DNA from: a bacterium
GTDB taxonomy: Bacteria; CAIWAD01
Direction of reading: 5' to 3'
NCBI GenBank assembly: GCA_030429345.1
Contig: JAUIFJ010000001.1
Coordinates: 124,001-188,000 of the forward strand
DNA length: 64,000 bases
Part shown: one piece after another, positions 19,843-26,173 of the stretch
How the letters are laid out: each line of letters starts with the position of its first letter
Numbering within the stretch: the stretch's first letter is position 1
Translations under genes and position numbers: made by a program
Notes under the pieces: generated by a model
What the model was told of the DNA's origin: nothing
The model's input: only the letters and a program-made list of their open reading frames with translations
Databases searched by the model: none

Positions 19843-21372
19843 CTAGAAACAGATGCGGTTGCGCCCCTCTTCCTTGGCGCGATAAAGGCAGGCGTCGGCC
19901 TTGGCGATCAGCTCCTTGGGGCTGGAGATCTCGCTGTCCTCGGCCAGGCTGGCTATGCCCATGCTGACCGTGATGTGCATCGGTTCCTTGGGGCGGTAGC
20001 TGTATTCGTAGCTCTCGATGGCGCGCCGGATCTTCTCCGCGGCAATGCGGGCCGCGTAGAGCGTGGTTTCCGGAAGGATGATCACCATTTCCTCGCCGCC
20101 GTAGCGCGCCGCCATGTCGGAGGTGCGGGTCAGCTGGCGCAGCAATTCGCCCGTCTCGGAAAGGATCGTATCGCCCTGCTGGTGGCCGTAGTTGTCGTTG
20201 ACCGATTTGAAGTGGTCGATGTCCAGGATAATGAGGGAGATCGTGCGCCTGTATCGGCGGCTGCGCTCGAATTCCCGTTCGATGAAATCGTCGAAATAGC
20301 GCCGGTTGTAGAGTCCGGTCAGCGTGTCGTGGTTGGCCATCCGCTGCAGGATCTCGTTGGCCTCGCGCAGCTTGAGCGCCAGCTCCTCCGCCTTCTGCTT
20401 CGCCGCCTTCAGTTCGCGGTTCATCCGCTCGTAGGTGGCGTTCAGGTCTTCCAGCTCCTGGTTGGCCTCGTCGAGCAGCTCCGTGTAGCTCGGCAGGCTC
20501 ATGTTGGAGAAGCCGTACTGCGCCGCCACCTCCAGCACTTCCTCCTTGATGCCTCTGAAGAACTCGTCCACCTCGTCGGGACTCATGCGGAACTGCTGCC
20601 GTGATTCATTGCGGAAGTCGCGCAGCGCCACGCCGACGCCCGGCGAGAAGAAGATCCTTCCGGCCAGGCGCGCCATGTGCACCAGGCGGGAGATCCGCTG
20701 GATCGCCGGATCCTCGCTCTCGATGCCCCGCAGATCGTGGTGATGCACGATCGGCCGCACCAGGAACTCGGGCAGCTCCCAGCGCCGCAGGATGGCTTCT
20801 CCCATTTCCTCGTGGCTGAATTCCAGGCGGCTGGTCTCGGAGACGACAATGTCCTCGCCGTGTCTCACATCGTCCGCCAGGATCCCCTCGTAGTCCGCTC
20901 CATGTATACGGAGCTGCACCAGCATGCCGACGTCCATCATCAGGCAGGCCATGAAGACTTCTTCCGGCGTCTCGTGCTTGATCATGCGGGCCATCTTGCG
21001 GCCGGCGACGGCGGCGAAGAGCGACCTCTCCCACAGGCGGTGCAGGTCCTCGATGGTTCCCGTGTTGTCGACCATCATCTCGATGACATTGGTCGAGAGC
21101 ACGATCGACTTGATGGTGTCGAGTCCCAGCAGGACGACGGCCTGGCTGACCGTTGTCACACGGCTCGTGAAGCCGTAGTAGGCGGAGTTGACAGCCTTCA
21201 GGATGCGGCTGGAAAGGGCGGTGTCGTTCTGGATCAGGTCCGCGATCTGGCGCGCGGTGGAGTCGTCCTCGTCGAGCAGGCCGAGTACGCGGGATACAAC
21301 GGGAGAGAGGGCGGGAATGTCCTCAATGCGATCCAGCAGCAGCTGTGGATCCGTTGCCTTGATCTCGTTCAT
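19843..21372 (-). CDS. HDOD-GGDEF signalling protein (diguanylate cyclase)
   Basis: A 509-residue protein. HDOD domain at about 10-220 (IPALSPVVSRVLGLL...LSSRILKAVNSAYYG...QAVVLLGLDTIKSIVL), a coiled coil at about 300-350, then GGDEF. The active-site signature is GGEEM (425-429), one of the active variants, and the product-inhibition I-site RTSD lies five residues before it. It should make cyclic di-GMP from GTP in response to a signal through HDOD. I used the ATG at 21372 (MNEIKATDP); the frame is open ten codons further. The start lies 50 nt inside rsmD, so it may be coupled to that gene. Confidence 0.9.
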   Translation of the reverse strand: MNEIKATDPQLLLDRIEDIPALSPVVSRVLGLLDEDDSTARQIADLIQNDTALSSRILKAVNSAYYGFTSRVTTVSQAVVLLGLDTIKSIVLSTNVIEMMVDNTGTIEDLHRLWERSLFAAVAGRKMARMIKHETPEEVFMACLMMDVGMLVQLRIHGADYEGILADDVRHGEDIVVSETSRLEFSHEEMGEAILRRWELPEFLVRPIVHHHDLRGIESEDPAIQRISRLVHMARLAGRIFFSPGVGVALRDFRNESRQQFRMSPDEVDEFFRGIKEEVLEVAAQYGFSNMSLPSYTELLDEANQELEDLNATYERMNRELKAAKQKAEELALKLREANEILQRMANHDTLTGLYNRRYFDDFIEREFERSRRYRRTISLIILDIDHFKSVNDNYGHQQGDTILSETGELLRQLTRTSDMAARYGGEEMVIILPETTLYAARIAAEKIRRAIESYEYSYRPKEPMHITVSMGIASLAEDSEISSPKELIAKADACLYRAKEEGRNRICF

Positions 21373-21910
21373 CGCGGTAAATCCGGATGGTGCTGCGCCC
21401 AAAAGCCTTTTCCCTGTACAAGGTCAGGCCTTCCGGCGCGAGAGGACGGCCCGTCGGATGCTCCAACACGAGCAGGCCGCCGGGCGTCAGGGGGCGGGCC
21501 TGGTCAAGAATCGGCAGGAGTTCATCCAGTACCCCGCTGTCATATGGAGGATCGACAAAAACCAGATCCACCTTTACGCCACCCTTGGCATCGCGCAGAA
21601 ATCGGAGCGCGTCGCGGCGCTGCACAAGGGCCTTGTCCTCGCCGATGCCAAGGTGTTGCAGGTTCATGCCCAGGGCTTTGAGTGCGCGCGGGGAAATGTC
21701 GAGGAAGGTGGCATGGCGAGCGCCCAGGCTGAGGGCGTGAATGCCCAACGAGCCGCTGCCGGCAAAAAGGTCCAGCACGCTGCGCCCCTCGAAGTCCGAA
21801 CGCAGCACATTGCAGATCCAGTCGCGCATGCGGCCGGTCGTGGGACGCACTTCCAAGCCTGCCGGCACCTTGAGCACCCGGCCCTTGTATGCTCCGAAGA
21901 GTACTCGCAG
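21323..21910 (-). CDS. rsmD: 16S rRNA (guanine-966-N2)-methyltransferase
   Basis: Class I SAM methyltransferase. The SAM motif is VLDLFAGSGSLGIHALS and the catalytic N2-guanine motif is VFVDPPYDSG (NPPY type). A GTG at 21877 gives MLKVPAGLEVRPTTGRMRD, but the codons just upstream read RVLFGAYKGR, which completes the conserved RsmD N-terminus (RIIxGxxKGRxL). The family-consistent start is therefore a CTG at 21910, 10 nt after the PilM-like gene's stop; no ATG/GTG/TTG precedes it. The last 25 residues go beyond the usual family end. Overlaps the HDOD gene by 50 nt. Confidence 0.85.
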   Translation of the reverse strand: MRVLFGAYKGRVLKVPAGLEVRPTTGRMRDWICNVLRSDFEGRSVLDLFAGSGSLGIHALSLGARHATFLDISPRALKALGMNLQHLGIGEDKALVQRRDALRFLRDAKGGVKVDLVFVDPPYDSGVLDELLPILDQARPLTPGGLLVLEHPTGRPLAPEGLTLYREKAFGRSTIRIYRDERDQGNGSTAAAGSH

Positions 21911-21920
21911 AAGGCAGGCC

Positions 21921-23069
21921 CTAGAATCCGGAGCTGATGCTCCACCCCGACTCCGTCCGGATCAGGAGCAGGCGGCCGGGAGCGCTGTAGGTGTCGGCAA
22001 GCCCCGACAGGTCGCCGACCATGGTCCGCTTGCTGTCCAGTGTTTCAAGGGGCGCGTCTTCAAGGCCTTCCAGCCGGAACCAGCGGTAGCTGCCGCTGCT
22101 GCGCAAGGCGCGCAACGGTATCGGCGCAAGGAGCTCGGCCATATCCGCGCTGCCATCTACCAGCAAGCCTTTTCCATCCAGCAGCAGGTAGCCAGGGAGG
22201 CGGGACTCGGCGGCAGAAAGCGCCTGCAGAAGCTGTACCCTCGACAGGGGCGCACTCGCTTCCCCGGCGGGATCGCCCGTCGCGGGTGTTTCCGCGGCCT
22301 CTTGCGGCGGCGATGACTGCTCCACGCGGTCGAGGGCCGGCGAATCCACCGGAGGAATCGTCTCATCCGCTGTGCGGCGATCGACTGCCGGTTCCTCGAC
22401 GGGATCCAGTTGCTGGTAGCTCCCGGCCAGGTCCTCGGGGCTTGTCTGCATTTTCTGCCCCACCCAGCCGGAAACCAGCCATGCTCCAAGCACCAGGGCG
22501 GCAATCACAGGCAGAACCCAGGGAAGGCTGGAGGGGTTCTTCCATTTTTCGGATTCCAGGGCCTCTTCCAGCTGACGGGCGCGCAGGGGATCATAGCGCC
22601 AAAGACGTCCGCGCTGGTCCAGCACCTCGAAAAAGGCGGGACGAAAACCCAGGCCCAGGACGACCCGGCTGAGAAACTCTTCGACCGGGCGGCGAATCGC
22701 CGTCAGTCGGACACGCTCCGGGCTTTCCTCGTAATCGAAACGGTAATTGAGCCCGTCTTCCGGAGAATTGGTGTCCAGCTCCCACTGCAGGTGGCTCAGG
22801 GGGTTTTCGATCTGGGACAGGCCGGCAAGGGGAAGCTCAAGCAGCATGCTGCCCCATTCGATGGGCAAGCGCACGATGACGTCGGCCGGCCGGACCTCCT
22901 CGGGCAGCCGTTCTGCCAGGGCCTGGGTGAAGGTCTCGGCGACTTCCGGCTTGAAGAGCAGCTCCTGGCGCAGCAGGTAGGGCAGATCGACGGAGAGCTC
23001 CCGGTCGTCCTCCAGAACCCTCAGAGTCTGGGCGTCAAATTGAAAGACCAGGGTAGGGTACTTGGCCAT
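21921..23069 (-). CDS. PilM/GspL-like protein with one membrane segment
   Basis: A 382-residue protein. Residues 1-180 resemble the later half of PilM/GspL actin-like domains (DVIVRLPIEWGSMLLELPLAGL, then HLQWELDTNSPEDGLNYRFDYEES). A membrane segment follows (about 195-215, LPWVLPVIAALVLGAWLVSGWVG), then a periplasmic region rich in Pro, Glu and Ala, and a folded end. This order (PilM-like cytoplasmic part, TM, periplasmic part) fits a fused PilM-PilN or GspL inner-membrane platform protein. The nucleotide-binding half seems to be missing, so it may be a degenerate or divergent version. Located between rsmD and a pseudopilin-like gene. Confidence 0.5.
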   Translation of the reverse strand: MAKYPTLVFQFDAQTLRVLEDDRELSVDLPYLLRQELLFKPEVAETFTQALAERLPEEVRPADVIVRLPIEWGSMLLELPLAGLSQIENPLSHLQWELDTNSPEDGLNYRFDYEESPERVRLTAIRRPVEEFLSRVVLGLGFRPAFFEVLDQRGRLWRYDPLRARQLEEALESEKWKNPSSLPWVLPVIAALVLGAWLVSGWVGQKMQTSPEDLAGSYQQLDPVEEPAVDRRTADETIPPVDSPALDRVEQSSPPQEAAETPATGDPAGEASAPLSRVQLLQALSAAESRLPGYLLLDGKGLLVDGSADMAELLAPIPLRALRSSGSYRWFRLEGLEDAPLETLDSKRTMVGDLSGLADTYSAPGRLLLIRTESGWSISSGF

Positions 23070-23172
23070 CGGGTCTCCGTTCCGAAAGGGGTGCAGCCGC
23101 GCACCCGCATTCCCGCCTTATCGGATCAGGCGGCTGGGATCCTTGCGATCGGCCAGTGAATGCGGCCGGAAT

Positions 23173-24456
23173 CTATTCCCAGGAAGTCGTTCCGTTATAG
23201 ATGTAGCCATGGTTTTCCGGGGGATCCACCTCGAAAATACGCATGAACCCTTCCATGTAGACCTCGTCCCCTTCGATCGGGCTGTAGAGCGCGGTGCCGA
23301 CCGTGTCGATGCGAACAGAGTCGAGCTCGCTGCCGACGCGCAGGGCGCTGACGAGTTGCGATACCGCGGGAAGGGCCATCAGGCTTTCATGCTGTCGGGC
23401 GCGGCTGCCCAGCGTGGCTTCGGGGAAAAGGGTATCCTCCACGAAGCGGTCCGCGGTGTAGAAGGAGGCGGAATCGGCGCGCGCCGTATGGCTGCGCTCG
23501 GAGGAGTGGGCCAGCTTCTGGCCGGGTTCCATCTTCGCCAGCCAGGTGCTGACCTCTTCGACGACAATCTTGTTTTTCTCCGCCTCGGGCACCTGGAACT
23601 GGGCGTTGCCGGCCGCCTTGGCCGAATCGGTCAGGGCCTGGAAGCGCTCGGCAATCCCGTTTGCCACCTGGGTGCGGGCGGCCTCGAAGAAGGCCTGCTG
23701 GCGGGCCACTGTGGAGACGCTCTCGCCTTCCTCGCCCTCCAGCTCGAAAAGGTACTCGCCGGAGTAGCTGTACTTGGCTACGTGCTGCATTTCAAAGGGC
23801 TTGCCCGTGCTGGGGCAAGTGAAGATCGTCTCGAAGGGCAGGGCGAAACTGTGGCGGGTCACTTCCACGTAGGCGGAATCCCCGGGAGTGAAATAGCGCT
23901 CGAAGCGACTCGGGGAGGAGGCCCACAGGCTGAAATCCATTTCACCGTACTCGCGCGGCCAGGCCTTGATTTCCGAATCGGACCAGAGATGCAGGGTATC
24001 CGTGCCCAGGGCATCGTACTGGGGTTTCATTTTCGCCCAGATGCGTGTGTGGTAACGTTCCATGCCTTCCGGGGAAAGACCGCGGCCGCCACCCTGAATG
24101 GTGAAGGCTTCGACGCGCATGGTGTCTTCGGCGGAAATCAGGATCGAATCGCGGGCGGCATCCGGGTTCATCTGCTTCTGGTCGGCAATGAAGTGGAGCG
24201 GCGGGACATGCAGTCGGCAAGTGTCCAGGCTGGCCTTCAGGTCCTCGAAGGTGTCGGGGAACTTGCGGTTGAAGAACAGGTACTGCAGCGTAGCCGTGTT
24301 CAGGTTGGTCAGGCGCTTGCGGGCAAGAATCTGATCCGCTTCCTGCTGCTCCCACTGGCGGGAGGGGATCTCCACCGCGAAGTACAGCACGACGATCAGG
24401 ACCGCGATCAGAATCTTGAGCAGGATGCTGCCGCCGCCCGTTTGCTTACCGGCCAT
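23173..24456 (-). CDS. Membrane-anchored periplasmic protein, pseudopilin-like
   Basis: I do not recognise a firm family. The 427-residue protein has one N-terminal TM (ILLKILIAVLIVVLYFAVEI) followed by a helix (LNTATLQYLFFNRKFPDTFEDLKASL) that resembles the N-terminal region of GspG-type pseudopilins. It also has TCPSTGKPFEM and a C-terminal NHGYIYNGTTSWE, both similar to pseudopilin ends. A prepilin peptidase motif (G followed by FTLxE) is not present, so it would stay as a signal-anchored protein. It overlaps the upstream HhH gene by 11 nt and precedes the PilM-like gene, which suggests one complex. Confidence 0.5.
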   Translation of the reverse strand: MAGKQTGGGSILLKILIAVLIVVLYFAVEIPSRQWEQQEADQILARKRLTNLNTATLQYLFFNRKFPDTFEDLKASLDTCRLHVPPLHFIADQKQMNPDAARDSILISAEDTMRVEAFTIQGGGRGLSPEGMERYHTRIWAKMKPQYDALGTDTLHLWSDSEIKAWPREYGEMDFSLWASSPSRFERYFTPGDSAYVEVTRHSFALPFETIFTCPSTGKPFEMQHVAKYSYSGEYLFELEGEEGESVSTVARQQAFFEAARTQVANGIAERFQALTDSAKAAGNAQFQVPEAEKNKIVVEEVSTWLAKMEPGQKLAHSSERSHTARADSASFYTADRFVEDTLFPEATLGSRARQHESLMALPAVSQLVSALRVGSELDSVRIDTVGTALYSPIEGDEVYMEGFMRIFEVDPPENHGYIYNGTTSWE

Positions 24457-24901
24457 GGTGGTTCTCCCGACCTGTGGATGTTCTGCCGGAATCCGCTTCC
24501 GCGGGGCTGTCCAGCAGGAGTTGATCGCTCATGCGCGCCAGGGTTTTCGGACCGATGCCCCGGACCATGAGGAGTTGACTTGTCGACGTGAACCCGCCCA
24601 GGCTGTCACGCAAGGCGATGATTGCCCGCGAGCGGGAAGGGCCAATGCCCGGCAATCGCTCCAGATCCCTTGCTTGCGCCTCGTTGAGCACAAGCGGGCC
24701 GGACACCTCCTCCACGACCGCGGCCGTTGCCTGCCGCATTTCCACAGCCTTGTGGAAGAAAACCGCGTCCAGACTGTCCAGATCCAGGTGATCCAGCGCC
24801 GCCCAGCGGGACTCGATGAAAAGCAGCACATAGCCTGCTAACACAAGTCCCGAAAATCCAACAACTAGGCGTCGCTCTTGAGGCGTCAGCTTGAAGCTCA
24901 A
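24446..24901 (-). CDS. ComEA-like helix-hairpin-helix protein with N-terminal membrane anchor
   Basis: A 151-residue protein: TM at about 12-30 (LVVGFSGLVLAGYVLLFI), then a periplasmic (HhH)2 unit LNEAQARDLERLPGIGPSRSRAIIALRDSLGGFTSTSQLLMVRGIGPKTLARM. The two GIGP hairpins bind DNA backbone non-specifically, as in ComEA, the periplasmic DNA receptor of natural transformation. The only available start is a TTG at 24901, since a TAG sits two codons upstream, and no clear ribosome site is seen. Its 3' end overlaps the next gene by 11 nt. With the two pilus-like genes it may form a DNA-uptake or secretion module. Confidence 0.7.
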   Translation of the reverse strand: MSFKLTPQERRLVVGFSGLVLAGYVLLFIESRWAALDHLDLDSLDAVFFHKAVEMRQATAAVVEEVSGPLVLNEAQARDLERLPGIGPSRSRAIIALRDSLGGFTSTSQLLMVRGIGPKTLARMSDQLLLDSPAEADSGRTSTGRENHHGR

Positions 24902-25021: not shown

Positions 25022-26173
25022 TCAGTTGAAAAGGTGGTTCTTCAGCTTCTGGAAAAAACCCTTTTCGCCCGACTCGGGCAGTGTATCATCCTGCTTGCCC
25101 AGTTTCTCGAACAGTTTGCGGGTTTCGCCACAAACGTGCGTCGGCGTATACACCATCACCCGGATCAGCTGGTCGCCGGCGCGACCGCTGCGGTTGTTGC
25201 GGATTCCCTTGCCCTTCAGGCGCAGCAGGCTTCCCGACTGGGTGCCGGCGGGCACCGTGACGCGGGCCTCGCCGCCCAGGACGGGAACCGTCAGTTCGGC
25301 ACCGAGAACCGCCTGGGGCATGGAGACCTTCAGGAAATAGAGCACGTCGTCCTCGTGGCGCTCGAAGTACTCGTGCTCCTGCTCCTCGAAGACCAGGATC
25401 AGGTCTCCCTGGGGGCCGCCGCGCGGGCCGTGATTTCCCTGGCCGCGCAGGCGCATGAAGTTGCCGGCGTGCACACCCGAAGGAATGTGGACCTTGATCG
25501 AGGTCTCGCCGCGCTCGACGCCCTGGCCGCCGCATGTAGTACAAGGGTCGGAGATGACCGTGCCTTCCCCGTTGCAGTTGCGGCAGGTGGCAATGTTCTC
25601 GACCATGCCGAAAAAGCTGCGGCTGACCTGTCTCACACGGCCGGCGCCGTTGCAGACGCTGCAGGCCGTCGGCCGGCTGCCGGCCTTGCCGCCGCTGCCT
25701 CCGCAGCTGCCGCAGGGCACCTGGATCTTGACCTTGAGCTTCTTGTCCGCGCCATTCGCGATTTCTTCCAGGCTGAGCTTGAGGGTGATCTGGATGTCCC
25801 GCCCGGCGGGTTTCCCGCCCCGGCGGCCACGGCCGCCGGCGGCGCCGCCGAAGAGGTCTCCCAAATCCCCGAAGCCCGACATGAAGGTCCGCAGGGCATC
25901 GTTGATGTCGAAATCGAAGTCGCCCATGCCTCCCGCGCCGCCGAAATTGCCGTCGACGCCGGCGTGTCCCATCTGGTCATAGCGGGCGCGCTTCTGGTCG
26001 TCGGAGAGCACGGAATAGGCCTCGGAAACCTCCTTGAAGGTCTCTTCGGCGCCCTCTTCCTTGTTCTTGTCCGGGTGATACTTCAGCGCGAGCTTGCGGT
26101 AGGCCTTCTTGATCTCGCTCTTGTCCGCCTCGCGTGATACGCCCAGGACTTCGTAGTAGTCGCGTTTCGACAT
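25022..26173 (-). CDS. dnaJ: Chaperone protein DnaJ (Hsp40)
   Basis: A 383-residue class A J-protein. The J domain has YHPDKNK (HPD motif). A Gly/Phe-rich linker ([12 protein letters not shown]) follows, with four zinc repeats [24 protein letters not shown] and CTTCGGQG, then the beta-rich C-terminal substrate domain ([17 protein letters not shown]). It delivers unfolded proteins to DnaK and stimulates its ATPase. It is third in a leftward hrcA-grpE-dnaJ set; the start is 10 nt from the grpE stop. dnaK, which usually lies between grpE and dnaJ, is absent here. Confidence 0.97.

Follow-up and report, generated by a model that had tools for sequence, protein, structure and literature searches.

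A conserved block of ComEA-like, pilin-like and PilM/GspL-like genes between dnaJ and rsmD that may encode a filament-less inner-membrane complex

We describe a small block of genes, situated between dnaJ and rsmD, that encodes a ComEA-like HhH membrane protein, a probable pilin-fold protein (PPL) and either a GspL-like protein (PML) or, in its place, separate relatives of PilM and PilN. The block is old and is conserved in at least three phyla. We propose that its products form a filament-less inner-membrane complex that descends from T4P/T2SS platform parts and probably handles DNA, a reading that we hold, taken as a whole, at about an even chance. The structural part of this proposal we consider quite likely; the step to DNA handling is tentative, and we put it somewhat short of even. 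PilM and PilN are regarded as aids to filament assembly, and their persistence without a detected filament core suggests that they have a function of their own.

In the window (the whole stretch of 64,000 nucleotides that was analysed) the genes lie on the minus strand and are transcribed in the order hrcA, grpE, dnaJ, HhH, PPL, PML, rsmD and HDOD-GGDEF. The features are:

24446..24901, minus strand: gene 1, ComEA-like HhH protein, 151 aa, with an N-terminal TM helix and a TTG start
23173..24456, minus strand: gene 2, PPL, probable pilin-fold protein, 427 aa, with a TM/alpha-1 helix at residues 11-63 and a large insertion
21921..23069, minus strand: gene 3, PML, GspL-like protein, 382 aa, with a predicted truncated PilM actin-like domain (about residues 2-166), a TM helix (about 185-207) and a C-terminal part
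25022..26173, minus strand: dnaJ, conserved upstream neighbour, J-domain sequence by eye, with hrcA and grpE before it
21323..21910, minus strand: rsmD, conserved downstream neighbour (TIGR00095, 131.6 bits, cut-off 117.5)
19843..21402, minus strand: HDOD-GGDEF gene, outside the module, after rsmD (HDOD 4.1e-53, GGDEF 2.9e-49)

An earlier note on this DNA had pointed to three leftward genes that overlap or lie close together, and the arrangement is confirmed at these coordinates, with an 11-nt overlap between HhH and PPL and a 103-nt gap between PPL and PML. The end of the dnaJ ORF is 120 nt from the HhH gene, and rsmD follows directly after PML. Family-library searches covered the HhH, PPL, PML, rsmD and HDOD proteins; hrcA, grpE, dnaJ, coaD, pta, aat, ftsE and ftsX were named by eye from their sequences and are presumed to be these genes. 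The start codon of rsmD is probably a CTG at 21908-21910 on the minus strand, since the residues RVLFGAYKGR, which look like a conserved N-terminus, are encoded before the first in-frame ATG, GTG or TTG. The HDOD-GGDEF gene also follows rsmD in four genomes of the window's phylum (G001-G004), and in the distant family f104 (L150 and L151).

A gene-neighbourhood survey, which the earlier note had proposed, included the five genomes of the window's phylum and 82 genomes of a second phylum, from which 41 loci were read: L018, 20 from 13 families, and 20 more, of which 13 come from genomes with no pilin-like match, six from genomes with no detected pilus motor and one from another genome. Three of the 41 are cut by contig ends (L096, L101 and L102), leaving 38 complete loci, and the loci of four of the 17 genomes that gave no pilin-like match (G069, G073, G093 and G109), in which there was no hrcA match, were left out. 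The HhH, PilM and PilN genes lie between dnaJ and rsmD in all 38 complete loci, each with a dnaJ relative at the same place. PPL is present in 28 of the 38, which is not a frequency because the ten loci without it were picked for its absence, and in those ten the PilM gene comes directly after HhH; a PPL match is found in 65 of the 82 genomes. In the window's phylum, five loci (four complete, one partial) have the single PML gene where the second phylum has PilM and PilN.

When the search was widened to 386 genomes, 53 had matches at E <= 1e-6; many of these are weak and may be ordinary pilins. Part of the order dnaJ-HhH-PPL-PilM-PilN-rsmD-coaD is kept in 17 of the 18 loci outside both phyla. 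The remaining one, L158, has no block neighbour; it was taken to be a match by chance and left out. Six of the 17 have no HhH gene in the block (L141-L145 and L157, with L145 cut near that side), L146 has no adjoining rsmD, and L155 no recognised PilM or PilN, while in L150, L151 and apparently L147 the PilM-like gene is long and includes a TM helix, like that of the window. The cluster is more than a chance association, as the same gene order recurs outside the window's phylum. We found no description of the block in openly licensed literature (titles and abstract openings among the matches listed), and the available part of PMC6668835 contains none.

Gene 1 had been described as a membrane HhH protein with a TTG start, and this is borne out by an HHH_3 match in Pfam (60.9 bits against a cut-off of 27, E 1.3e-16), by the TM helix, and by its three best solved relatives, all of which are of ComEA type (8dss, 2duy and 8dfk); its start region aligns with those of four relatives. 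The architecture is likewise that of ComEA, with an N-terminal TM anchor and a C-terminal HhH domain. Unlike ComEA, however, gene 1 scores below the curated cut-off for comE TIGR01259 (54.1 bits against 152.35) and is linked to PilM and pilin-like genes, and both its DNA binding and its topology are putative. Among 43 HhH proteins, the strict GxG hairpin motif is present in two or more copies in 23, in one copy in 18, and is missing from two. The summed net charge of the TM flanks in these 43 proteins is +42 before the helix and +13 after it, although K and R counted alone are commoner after it (117, against 96 before), and the TM caller put the helix of one protein (L056) in the wrong place. 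The flank charges thus favour a periplasmic HhH domain only weakly.

PPL belongs to no Pfam family, and Pfam, NCBIfam and PHROGs offer no convincing family for PPL or PML beyond a weak match of PPL to GspG (17.8 bits, cut-off 88.85). It carries a single N-terminal TM helix, and the predicted structure of the 427-residue window protein, which had been suggested as a check, has one helix at residues 11-63 (mean pLDDT 64.7, pTM 0.54). Foldseek returned no match for this model at E <= 0.001, but pilins or pseudopilins fill the best seven rows from VIA-align (Z 7.5-4.0), ahead of the best row of any other kind at Z 3.6. The top row is GspG (3gn9; rmsd 3.6, 92 aligned), with Z 7.5 falling below the 8 asked for by VIA-align; these are middling Z values for a modest model. 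In a comparison of the PPL profile with the PDB, pilins also rank first (PilA, 3.1e-4), with the match lying over the N-terminal helix. The fold of PPL is therefore probably that of a pilin, as far as the model can be trusted. Near the C-terminus is a motif, NHGxIxNGxxSW, in which H, G and W are invariant in an alignment of 32 proteins.

The prepilin-like site of the window PPL is degenerate, with S at +1 and K at +5. The earlier description of a single-TM, pseudopilin-like protein without a prepilin site therefore suits the window protein, but the G at -1 is kept. Of the 32 aligned proteins, with the window PPL counted, 17 have Glu at position +5, 14 have Lys and one has Arg, and Glu at this position does not correlate with a prepilin peptidase, which is found with eight of the 17 Glu proteins and nine of the 15 with Lys or Arg. 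We also note that PPL is 563-615 aa long in six loci (L066, L069, L070, L141, L142 and L144) and 120-504 aa in the others, the long forms having large insertions or extensions.

PML has no Pfam match at E 1, and it is the predicted structure (mean pLDDT 76.1) that relates it to PilM and GspL. Foldseek matches the model to PilM at 1.4e-6, VIA-align gives Z 12.4 to PilM and 10.6 to GspL, and hhalign matches PML to the second-phylum PilM profile at 3.5e-7 over 61 columns; all three identify a PilM-type actin-like domain. Since the PilM and GspL matches are confined to residues 2-166 or so of the model, PML appears to be without the second half of the actin-like fold, and the claim that gene 3 encodes a PilM/GspL-like TM protein missing part of that fold holds up. 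A GspL-like composition, with a PilM pseudo-actin domain, a TM helix and a further domain, is supported by the model.

The separate PilM relatives lie above the PilM_2 (PF11104) cut-off and below that of TIGR01175 in four of four tested. The phosphate-1 Asp is kept in one of 38 and lost in the other 37, from which we infer a static, nucleotide-independent scaffold. The INL motif of PilN binds PilM, and an INL/MNL-type motif is present within the first 25 residues of all 38 PilN relatives, a count that does not include the fused gene of the window. T2SSM_b (GspM) scores over the cut-off in one of three PilN relatives tested. A comparison of the PilN profile with the PDB gave weak, mixed matches, with VirB10 and DotF first and GspL, PilO and PilN lower, and was not used.

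The genome that carries the window has pilus genes of its own. Contig C8 holds a T4P locus with two ATPase matches, a platform protein, a peptidase and a PilM-like gene whose GLDIG motif is intact, C60 a second, T2SS-like locus, and C5 ComEC. The block, on contig C75, contains no prepilin peptidase (the genome's one PF01478 match is on C8), no extension ATPase (its three PF00437 matches are on C8 and C60) and no platform protein (PF00482 is on C8 and C60 among the matches listed). Because of the separate T4P locus, the block is not a reduced remnant of this genome's pilus, and because that locus has its own PilM-like gene, PML is an additional, diverged relative. The cluster had been taken for a reduced DNA-uptake or secretion platform; what stands is a unit of T4P/T2SS parts with a ComEA-like protein, whereas a local remnant does not agree with the conserved block and the separate T4P locus. 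Nothing in the analysis bears on secretion; DNA uptake is possible.

Core pilus genes were searched for in 80 of the 87 genomes of the two phyla. PF00437 (T2SSE, the extension ATPase) is present in at least 69 of these, with up to 21 candidates per genome scored, PF00482 (T2SSF, the platform protein) in 61 among the matches listed, and PF01478 (peptidase A24, the prepilin peptidase) in 48. Ten genomes (G003, which is of the window's family, G083, G094, G102, G103, G114, G120, G121, G122 and G124) have no match to T2SSE, T2SSF or peptidase A24, again with no more than 21 PF00437 candidates scored per genome, and all ten carry PPL. Four of the ten are at least 90% complete with at most 5% contamination, and G114 reaches 100% completeness at 6% contamination; completeness is lower in the remaining genomes, so motor absence is not proven for each of the ten. 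In 17 further block-bearing genomes, T2SSE is found in 16 and peptidase A24 in 13, and G163 has neither. ComEC is present in 72 of the 80 genomes and in all 17 of the further ones (89 of 97 together), and in eight of the ten motor-less genomes (not found in G003 and G120). It does not discriminate, being widespread among controls too (10 of 14 genomes) and without a match in two of the motor-less ten.

The block genes in one motor-less genus, g92, look to be under purifying selection as judged from sequence comparison. For the pair L104 and L109, dN/dS is 0.10 for HhH, 0.11 for PPL, 0.14 for PilM and 0.23 for PilN, compared with 0.07 for dnaJ and 0.20 for rsmD, at dS of 0.7 to 1.2. At similar dS the values are higher in the pair from the window's phylum (L014 and L015; HhH 0.31, PPL 0.38, PML 0.39, dnaJ 0.16). 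Three pairs without PPL gave 0.14 to 0.37 for HhH, 0.11 to 0.27 for PilN, and 0.09, 0.12 and one undefined value for PilM. The matches of the phylum searches contain no internal stops; in the wider search a few C-terminal pieces count one, and the stop counted for the window is beyond the gene end. That the block is kept even without a detectable pilus motor indicates that it probably has a job that does not involve making a pilus.

In the complex that we propose, PilM would dock on the N-terminal INL motif of PilN, the two being one chain in the window, and the uncleaved pilin-fold protein would contact the periplasmic part of PilN or GspL, much as EpsG does EpsL. The HhH domain would be periplasmic and bind double-stranded DNA, and the complex would hold that DNA at the inner membrane and most plausibly hand it on to ComEC, without a pilus or an ATPase of its own. 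For the contact between the products of genes 2 and 3 we take as precedent a cross-linking study of EpsG to EpsL, listed among the references in the available part of PMC10191384. The suggestion of DNA handling draws on the HhH protein, on ComEC, and on Riemerella anatipestifer, in which, according to the abstract of PMC8459023, an HhH protein and ComEC are among eight genes essential for transformation, none of them named there as a pilus gene; the likeness is by description alone. A more specific version, in which a nucleotide-independent PilM, PilN, an uncleaved pilin-fold protein and a ComEA-type receptor make up a pilus-less DNA-uptake complex that delivers to ComEC, seems to us possible but doubtful. 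The block is a testable candidate for DNA handling or uptake in some diderm bacteria that have no pili.

A pilin, a prepilin peptidase, an extension ATPase and a platform protein belong to every type IV filament system, as given in the available part of PMC10191384, and since three of these four are absent from the block we do not file it as such a system. It shares with the type IVa pilus PilM-PilN(-PilO) assembly a PilM-type actin-like protein, a PilN with an INL motif and a probable pilin-fold partner, but differs in that ATPase, platform protein and prepilin peptidase are all missing, in the degenerate nucleotide motif of its PilM, in its ComEA-like gene, and in its position between dnaJ and rsmD. 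In the same way gene 3 has the architecture of GspL, and gene 2 is nearest to GspG among solved folds, as in the GspL-GspM-GspG part of the T2SS, but there is no GspE, GspF or GspO, and the window's gene 2 has neither Glu5 nor a hydrophobic +1 residue. Loci of this sort would probably escape system finders that ask for a quorum of filament genes.

Three alternatives were considered. The block could provide an alternative set of PilM, PilN and pseudopilin that joins the ordinary T4P/T2SS ATPase and platform of the cell, with the HhH protein serving transformation. We think this unlikely, although the window genome does have both a T2SS-like locus and a T4P locus that includes a separate PilM, and T2SSE is found in at least 69 of 80 and 16 of 17 genomes; the ten genomes that carry PPL without any of the three core families, the low dN/dS in one motor-less genus, and the Glu at +5 that is untied to peptidase presence (8/17 versus 9/15) all argue against it. 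As most genomes do have a T4P/T2SS ATPase, the module could nonetheless work with it where present.

Still less probable, in our judgement, is an envelope or chromosome-anchoring scaffold in which the HhH domain, if cytoplasmic, could attach DNA to the membrane. The flank charges leave the HhH orientation open, and the kinship of the PilM and FtsA folds is evident in the match of FtsA 3wqt to the PML model (Foldseek 4.9e-4, Z 8.7), but the best PilM and GspL chains outscore the best FtsA, though a few of the PilM/GspL chains come below it. Likewise, the ftsE/ftsX-like genes seen upstream in many loci precede hrcA and not the block, and none is labelled in the Delongbacteria loci read. If the block were the decaying remains of a pilus operon that had persisted among housekeeping genes, this would account for the degenerate prepilin site and PilM nucleotide motif, for the absence of PPL from ten of 38 complete loci, and for the higher dN/dS (0.31-0.39) of the Delongbacteria pair L014 and L015. 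However, with no internal stops in the phylum-search matches, low dN/dS in the other pairs and retention of the block in at least three phyla, we regard decay as very improbable.

The earlier note had also raised, as speculation, a connection between the cluster and the hexamer GTATAC, which occurs 31 times in the window where dinucleotide shuffles predict 0.83. It exceeds expectation in four further stretches of the same genome too, with 4, 13, 4 and 8 occurrences (expected 0.35, 0.69, 0.51 and 4.1), the last being the weakest excess. The word is not over-used in cluster-bearing genomes of the same phylum: three genomes of the window's family that have the cluster in whole or in part show a single copy in 37.3 kb, and G004, a genome of the window's class that carries the whole cluster, shows 2 where 1.99 are expected. 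An uptake word tied to the cluster was rejected on these grounds, and GTATAC may be a HIP1-like or methylation-linked word.
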